From positions 186,001 through 250,000 of the forward strand of contig NZ_JABVEC010000005.1 of the NCBI RefSeq assembly GCF_014323705.1: a stretch of DNA of 64,000 bases, given 5' to 3'. Shown here piece after piece: positions 9,138 through 11,410 of the stretch. Both the position numbers and the translations under genes were made by a program. Within the stretch, counting starts at the first letter, position 1. Each line of letters begins with the position of its first letter. The notes under the pieces are model-generated. The model was not told the DNA's origin. It did no database searches and worked only from the letters and a program-made list of their open reading frames with translations. The stretch comes from Actinomadura alba (GTDB lineage Bacteria > Actinomycetota > Actinomycetes > Streptosporangiales > Streptosporangiaceae).

Positions 9138-10205
9138 TCATGAGGGGGAGTGGCCGGATTCCGAGGCGGTCGAATAGTCGGTGTAGCCGCGGTGGTCGCC
9201 ACCGTAGAAGGTCGCGGGGTCGGCCTCGTTGTACGGCCCACCGGCTCGCACCCGGGCCGGCAGGTCCGGATTGGCCAGCCAGTATCTCGCCAGGCTGATC
9301 GCGTCGGCGAGTCCCTCGGTGAGGTCTCTGGCGCCGGCGTCGGGCGTGACCGGCGCGTCCGGCGGGGACGGATGCGGGTTGAGGATCAGCACTCCCGGCC
9401 ATTCGGCGCGGATCAGCGGGGCGACCGCCCGCGAGCCCGTCTCCATCACGTGCACGTAGGCCAGGTCGTACGCCGCCAGCGCCCGCGCCAGGGTGGTGTA
9501 GAGCTCCGCGGGGTCGCTCTCGGTGATGCCGTTGGCCGTGTTGCCCGGCGACAGCCGGATCCCGAGCCGATGGAATCCGATCGCGTCGCCGACGGCCCGC
9601 ACGAGTTCGACCGCGAACCGGATCCGGTTCTCCGCCGGCCCGCCGTAACCGTCGGTCCGCAGGTTGGCGCCGTCGGCGAGGAACTGGTGGATGAGATAGC
9701 CGTTGGCGCCGTGCAGTTCGACGCCGTCGAAACCGGCCTCGACCGCGTTGTGAGCGGAGGCCACGTGGTCATCGATGGTCCGCTCGATGTCGTCCAGCGT
9801 CATCTCGCGTGGGGTCGGGTGTTCGAGCATGCCGTCCGGCGTGTACAGCCGCTCCCCCGAGGCGATCGCCGAGGGTGCCATCGGCAACGCCCCGTCCGGG
9901 TAGAGCACGGGGTGCCCGACGCGGCCGCCGTGCATGATCTGGACGAAGATGCGCCCGCCCTCGGCGTGGACGGCGTCGGTGACCTTTCGCCACGCCGCCA
10001 CCTGTTCCGCGGAGTGCAGGCCCGGGGTGTCGAGGTAACCCTGCCCGATCACACTGGGCTGCGTGCCCTCCGTGATGATCAGACCGGCCGAGGCCCGCTG
10101 CGCGTAGTACCGAACGGTCAGCTCGCTCACCAGCCCGCCGTACGCTCTGCTCCGGGTCATCGGCGCCATCACCAGCCGGTTGGGCAGCTCGATCCCACCG
10201 AGCTT
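9138..10205 (-). pseudogene. Old-yellow-enzyme alkene reductase, 5' end lost
   Basis: An FMN-dependent ene-reductase of the NemA/OYE family. It retains VMAPMTRSRA, the substrate pair H154/N157 in ELHGANGYL (numbered from the ATG at 10172) and the C-terminal phosphate-binding part. The family-typical LGGIELPNRLV strand is encoded at about 10173-10205 but has no start codon in front of it. Beyond 10205 the frame becomes an arginine-rich string that is the antisense of the neighbouring LuxR gene. The first roughly 10 residues and the native promoter are thus missing. Translation could restart at 10172, but that would remove the first beta strand. Probably a recent pseudogene. Confidence 0.65.
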
Positions 10206-10213
10206 CAGCCATC

Positions 10214-11410
10214 GGGTGCGGCGACGGGATCGTCGAAGGCGTCGACCACCTGATCCGTGGCGACTACGCGCGAGGGCTTCCGCTGCTCGCGCGGATGGTG
10301 GCGCGGTCGCCGGACGATCCGGCCGTACGGGAGCACGCCCTGCTCGGCGGCATGATCCTGGGTGACGACGACGCGATGCTCGAACTGGCCGCCGCCGAGG
10401 TGGCCGACCGCCGCCGGCGCGGGCTGGCCGGGGCGCTGCCGGGCGCGCTCGGCGCGCTGGCGCAGGCCCAGGTCATGGCCGGACGGCATCGCGACGCCGA
10501 GGCCGGTGTGGCCGAGGCGATGGACATCGCCAGGGACGCCGGTCTCAACGGGAGCGTTCGCGGGCTCGGCGGGGTGCTGGCCAGGATCGCGGCGATCGAG
10601 GGGGACGAGGATCGTTGCCGCGAGCTGACCGGCGACGCCTCGGACGCCTTCGACGCGACCGTCGAGTCGGCGCTGAGCCTGCTCGACCTCGGGCTGGGCC
10701 GGTACGACAGCGCGCTGCGGCGGCTGGAGCGGGCCTGGCACGGCCCGGCGCGGCACTCGCCCCTGCTGCTCTTCGCCGCCGCCGACCAGGTCGAGGCGGC
10801 GGTCCGGGCCGACCGGCCGGAGCGTGCCGCCGAGCCGCTGCGCCGGTTCGAGGAGTGGGCCGAGGCCACCTGCCGGCCGTGGGCGCGGGCTGTCGCGCTG
10901 CGCGGCCGAGCACTGCTGCTCGACGAGGAGGAGCATTACGGGGCGGCCGTGCGCATGCACGGAGAAGGCGGTCGGCCCTTCGAGCGGGCACGGACCGAGC
11001 TGCTGTACGGCGAGTGGCTGCGCCGCGCGCGCCGCCGGTCCGACGCCCGTGCGCCGCTGCGCTCGGCGCTGGAAATCTTCGAACGGCTGCACGCGGCCCC
11101 GTGGGCCGAACGGGCCCGGTCCGAGCTGCGCGCCACCGGCGAGACCGGTGCGGCGGTGGCGCGCCCCGTGGCATCCGATCAGCTCGACCGGCTGACCCCG
11201 CAGGAGGCACAGGTCGTACGGCTGGCCGCGGAGGGCACCAGCAATCGCGACATCGCGGCCCAGTTGTTCCTCAGCCCGCGGACTGTCGAATACCACCTGT
11301 ACAAGGCCTATCCGAAGCTCGGCGTCTCGTCCCGCAGGGAACTCTCGGGCCTCGAATCGGGCGCCGACCCCTCCGGCGGCCGGTTCGCCCTGAACACCGC
11401 GGACTCATGA
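10214..11410 (+). pseudogene. LAL-type LuxR regulator, N-terminal half lost
   Basis: This is the C-terminal half of a large ATP-binding LuxR (LAL) regulator, a family of around 900 residues. Alpha-helical tetratricopeptide-like sequence runs from about 10220, for example LIRGDYARGLPLLARM, in frame and upstream of the first ATG (10295). It ends with a LuxR HTH: LTPQEAQVVRLAAEG, then NRDIAAQLFLSPRTVEYH. The AAA ATPase half is absent. The coding signal begins abruptly at the same point where the divergent OYE gene ends. One deletion that removed both 5' ends explains this best. A start at 10295 would make a 371-residue ATPase-less DNA-binding protein. Confidence 0.65.

Follow-up and report, generated by a model that had tools for sequence, protein, structure and literature searches.

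Two genes in the 64-kb stretch of DNA analysed here (the window) very probably lost their 5' ends in one event, a deletion of about 1.6 kb in an ancestral divergent pair formed by an old yellow enzyme (OYE) gene and the gene for a LAL-type LuxR regulator. A single deletion was put forward for both truncations in the original prediction, and it is supported as the best explanation by the intact layout in relatives, the nature of the lost parts and the clean join. The event is of a known kind, an ordinary, clean double gene loss. The window covers positions 186001-250000 of contig C46 in an assembly (G000) of 8.38 Mb, 100 contigs and 93.5% completeness. The OYE remnant on the minus strand and the LuxR remnant on the plus strand abut head to head near base 10208 (Table 1).

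Table 1. Features around the junction (positions in the window)
Feature	Position	Strand	Evidence
OYE-family ene-reductase gene, first ~7 codons absent	9138..10208	-	Pfam PF00724, open frame, N-termini of relatives, DNA comparison
First in-frame start left in the OYE frame (GTG), no Shine-Dalgarno core	10170..10172	-	
LAL-type LuxR regulator, C-terminal ~400 codons with GerE HTH at the end; ~500 N-terminal codons with AAA_16 ATPase domain missing	10208..11410	+	
First in-frame start left in the LuxR frame (ATG), no Shine-Dalgarno core	10295..10297	+	
Deletion junction, where OYE homology ends and LAL homology begins; no inserted bases	10208..10209	.	Alignments, junction search

Two 5'-truncated genes meet at one point

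The FMN-binding oxidoreductase domain is present in the protein encoded on the minus strand (Pfam Oxidored_FMN, PF00724, E 1.1e-70, profile positions 6-338 of 342). In an intact relative, the domain starts at profile position 1. The frame (9138-10208) is open, with no stop before its end, and its product shares 63-75% identity with the OYEs in the 55 divergent pairs described below. Like other Old yellow enzyme/Oxidored_FMN ene-reductases, it carries the PF00724 domain, here extending from LGGIELPNRL as far as the C-terminus; unlike them, it lacks the first ~7 codons, the start and the ribosome site. The window protein keeps L-K-L-G-G-I-E-L-P-N-R-L, and the residues before this motif are unrelated. 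The typical N-terminus in intact relatives is M-x-E-L-F-E-P followed by three residues and then G. Among the matches listed, most solved ene-reductases begin to align at LKLGG or at one of the two residues that follow, and solved pentaerythritol tetranitrate reductases align from their own residue 8-10 at the OYE break in the window.

Start codons in the relatives were sought 3-15 codons upstream of the last match, with preference for the best Shine-Dalgarno core. They lie beyond the break point, 7 codons upstream in 49 of the 55 pairs and 8 codons upstream in the other 6, and a Shine-Dalgarno core precedes the start in 45 of the 55 intact genes. The position of the start in all 55 pairs, together with the late beginning of PF00724, bears out the claim that the window gene has no start of its own. 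By this comparison, it is not a complete OYE gene.

The plus-strand frame (10208-11410) is also open up to its end. Its product contains a C-terminal LuxR-type HTH (PF00196 GerE, E 2.6e-16), and no ATPase domain was found in it with Pfam. The intact LAL L097, in contrast, contains AAA_16 (residues 2-172) as well as GerE (residues 844-897), as expected if the ATPase half is missing from the window gene. In genome G011, the fragment aligns with residues 562-959 of an open frame that is 963 residues long. It also aligns with the C-terminal part of OYE-facing LALs from other genera, to which it is up to 66% identical. LAL homology starts at A-I-G-C-G-D-G-I-V-E-G, where L097 has R-A-I-G-R-H-D-A-V-V-E-G. 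A search of the window with 506 N-terminal residues of an intact LAL gave nothing beyond chance.

Of the 80 loci examined, 5 are cut by an end. In the 75 uncut loci, the open frame ahead of the matching part, measured up to the most distant in-frame start, is 336-950 codons long, and 476-611 in 67 of them, in agreement with the several hundred missing codons originally proposed. A naturally short LuxR protein was rejected, since all 75 loci have at least 336 open codons there. In a passage of PMC9628970, the LAL family is defined by an N-terminal ATP/GTP-binding (Walker A) domain. Because this domain is absent, the window gene is the remnant of a LAL and not itself a LAL. It resembles LAL regulators such as MalT and SCO6993 in the C-terminal HTH and the region before it, and differs from them in missing the N-terminal domain that defines the family.

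Both homologies stop at the junction, as had been claimed. The proposed break points of ~10205 and ~10220 needed correction: in the alignments both fall at ~10208, with nothing between them. The two flanks appear to share at most ~3 nt at the join, a possible microhomology. A 121-base junction query found some match in 213 of 341 family genomes. Among the matches listed, those that cross the join come from the window's own genome only; the matches in other genomes end at query position 63 or earlier (position 61 is base 10208). The same short proteins in relatives would have spoken against a deletion, and none appeared among the matches listed in this search.

The same results bear on a misassembly, in which 1.6 kb present in the organism was dropped when the contig was joined. 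This is unlikely. The distribution of the junction among the matches listed, the undecayed state of the remnants (see below) and an assembly of 100 contigs and 93.5% completeness would agree with such an error, but the missing half is found on no other contig. Furthermore, the junction lies ~196 kb along a 279-kb contig. This interior position and the very short sequence that the flanks could share make repeat collapse by the assembler unlikely. A join free of repeats fits illegitimate end joining, and the lack of visible repeats here points to that route.

The divergent pair is intact in relatives

Among the matches listed for the 40 relatives searched first, there was no adjacent OYE/LAL pair. 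This early case against a deletion was reversed by the pairs found in a family search of 341 genomes. Twenty regions were taken from it, 16 chosen as they hold both genes on one contig and 4 on a high-scoring OYE match alone. The divergent OYE/LAL pair is present in all 20 chosen regions. Two of them are cut by contig ends, L093 within the OYE gene and L096 within the LAL gene; the L096 LAL matches only residues 6-89 of the LuxR fragment, at 39% identity. The positions that touch in the window are 1,553-2,323 bp apart in the 20 regions, with a median of 1,618 bp.

Named genomes were scanned with the LuxR fragment, and the best 80 of 99 loci were analysed. A divergent OYE gene lies within 4 kb of the LAL gene in 55 of these 80, and the positions that touch in the window are 1,533-2,323 bp apart (median 1,615 bp). 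One locus has an OYE gene in another orientation. The remaining 24 show no OYE gene; in 5 of them, the sequence ends short of the LAL start. The two counts overlap, as 16 of the 20 regions are the same contigs as named loci. The named loci with related LALs are mostly from Actinomadura; Nonomuraea, Planobispora, Streptosporangium, Actinoallomurus, Streptomyces and others also occur. The divergent pair is a common arrangement in Actinomadura, Nonomuraea, Planobispora and neighbouring genera. Removal of one segment of ~1.6 kb suffices to link this layout to that of the window.

The intact pair that the original prediction expected in a close relative therefore exists (55/80 loci, 20/20 regions), but was found in other genera and not in a close relative. 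The intact comparators, from these other genera, have ~70-79% DNA identity. The congeners G001 and G002 gave no OYE or LAL match at E 1e-90 or better, and only weaker OYE-like and LAL-like matches. In narrow full-text searches of the literature, the papers listed lacked the term old yellow enzyme in one case and alkene reductase in the other, which does not by itself make the pair new.

Other arrangements were also seen. In genomes G012, G008 and G010, OYEs 68-73% identical to that of the window face a BTAD/AfsR-type regulator, not a LAL. Divergent pairs of this type are found at L024:9859-14351, L025:5558-10066 and L026:5205-9766, as if the regulator had been exchanged. Separately, the N-terminal half of the LAL is split across reading frames at L150:3014-5609 (Actinomadura sp. 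CNU-125) and L134:2859-5619 (Nonomuraea endophytica); these are either frameshifted pseudogenes or sequencing errors.

Inheritance of the pair and search for moved parts

Separate trees of 56 rows each were built for the OYE and the LAL fragment. The OYE tree puts the window in a group of 9 rows (98/94) with Planobispora, Nonomuraea, Streptosporangium, Streptomyces marokkonensis and Actinoallomurus soli. The LAL tree puts it in a 13-row group (99/99) composed of all these companions, A. craniellae and three Streptomyces. The trees do not agree in every detail: A. craniellae is the partner of the window in the LAL tree (99/77) and is placed elsewhere in the OYE tree with weak support (65/86). 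These overlapping relatives fit a pair that would have been inherited together. The OYE/LAL pair of Streptomyces marokkonensis (L104) groups with the Nonomuraea/Streptosporangium copies in both trees, which may reflect transfer between families.

The missing 5' half of the LAL gene was not recognised elsewhere in the 93.5% complete genome. The stretches most like it are 54% and 53% identical and lie within 929-aa open frames. A search of the genome for the AfsR/BTAD-type regulator, the OYE partner in three relatives, gave matches of at most 57% identity. With these values (at most 54% for LAL and 57% for AfsR/BTAD), neither search pointed to a moved 5' half.

The trees and the genome search also bear on a larger rearrangement, an inversion or translocation that would have joined the OYE gene to an unrelated LAL. 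It could draw on the OYEs of similar identity that face a BTAD/AfsR-type regulator and on the 24 of 80 loci where a related LAL has no nearby OYE (5 of them cut by an end). However, the two genes are divergent in 55 of the 80 loci, in the orientation seen in the window, the trees place the two proteins with overlapping sets of relatives, and no reciprocal fragment was found in the genome. We consider a rearrangement extremely improbable, and a single deletion within a pre-existing pair remains the preferred reading.

A conserved block in the spacer of intact pairs

The spacers between intact OYE and LAL genes are 74-148 bp long. This was determined from 52 of the 55 spacers, leaving out two that were not parsed and one that was misparsed. 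A block, GAATCNGTANNNTTTCGGTA, occurs with at most three mismatches in 48 of the 52 and with at most two in 46. It has no match in the 64-kb window. The four spacers that lack it all belong to the Nonomuraea/Streptosporangium group, which is near the window in the OYE tree, so the ancestor of the window may have had either form of spacer. In some spacers, for example those of L136 and L141, TACGGGGC and GCCCCGTA lie on either side of GAATCNGTANNNTTTCGGTA and form an inverted repeat. The position and conservation of the block suggest that it is a candidate LAL operator or shared divergent promoter.

Elsewhere in 31 genomes, GAATCNGTANNNTTTCGGTA has 13 two-mismatch matches, spread over 11 genomes, more than the reversed control with its 3 matches in 3 genomes. 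The window's own genome contributes one of the 13 (C13:468146-468165, L184), and a similar site is found in the congener G001 (C112:85324-85343, L185). The two sites occupy the same place within a 3-kb stretch that is 84% identical between G000 and G001. It is possible that a target of this type remains elsewhere in the genome.

State of the remnants

Neither remnant is visibly decayed. Among the residues that are invariant in the other aligned sequences, the window has changes at 2 of 135 in the OYE, compared with 0-8 in each of 19 others, and at 1 of 95 in the LAL, compared with 0-5 in each of 18 others. L093 was left out of this test for the OYE, and L091 and L096 for the LAL, owing to a contig end or an insertion. 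Decay was rejected as an age marker, as none is seen and the changes in the window are within the range of intact relatives. In a random-mutation control with the window's own two frames, the probability of three or fewer extra invariant-site changes fell from 0.09 at a neutral divergence of 1.5% to 0.007 at 2%. Any neutral period was short, since ~2% neutral divergence would have shown in this control. The end branch of the window measures 0.31 in both trees, about three times the median; some intact rows are equally long, and the window has no close relative in either tree. The undecayed remnants are explained by one of three conditions: a young deletion, continued constraint or an assembly error.

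Continued constraint would apply if the deletion is real and the short genes function, as an ene-reductase with a shortened N-terminus and a LuxR protein of 371 aa that lacks the ATPase and starts at ATG 10295. Open frames, conserved residues and the retained HTH are consistent with this. Against it, five remaining starts were tested in the two remnants and none is preceded by a Shine-Dalgarno core. The spacer block is gone as well, and the same form is seen in none of the 75 uncut loci nor among the junction matches listed. Functional short genes are accordingly very unlikely. There is a similarly slight chance that the LuxR remnant, with its middle domain and HTH, is a new ATPase-less regulator that starts at ATG 10295 and is still expressed by read-through, which would act independently of ATP on former LAL targets elsewhere. 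The likeliest state is that both genes lost by the deletion are now non-functional, because the spacer is gone and no ribosome site precedes the remaining starts.

Discussion

Our analysis suggests the following course of events. The ancestor would have carried a minus-strand gene for an OYE-type flavin ene-reductase, divergent from a plus-strand gene, some 75-150 bp away, for a LAL of ~900 aa with an ATPase, a middle domain and a LuxR HTH. The LAL probably controlled the shared promoter region between the two genes. One deletion of ~1.6 kb, with its ends at OYE codon 7 and near LAL codon 500, would then have joined the two gene bodies head to head, presumably by illegitimate end joining. Both starts, the ribosome site and the ATPase half of the LAL would have gone with it, as would the spacer and its likely promoters and operator. 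This double gene loss was probably a recent event.

Pseudogene pairs that arise when one deletion spans a divergent promoter are a general type. The window agrees with this type in having two 5'-truncated genes head to head, a clean join and an intact pair in relatives. It differs in that the remnants are still undecayed and are known from a single isolate. The locus offers a well-delimited case in which a single event probably disabled an enzyme together with its presumed regulator. The part most worth testing, more than the deletion itself, is the conserved spacer block.
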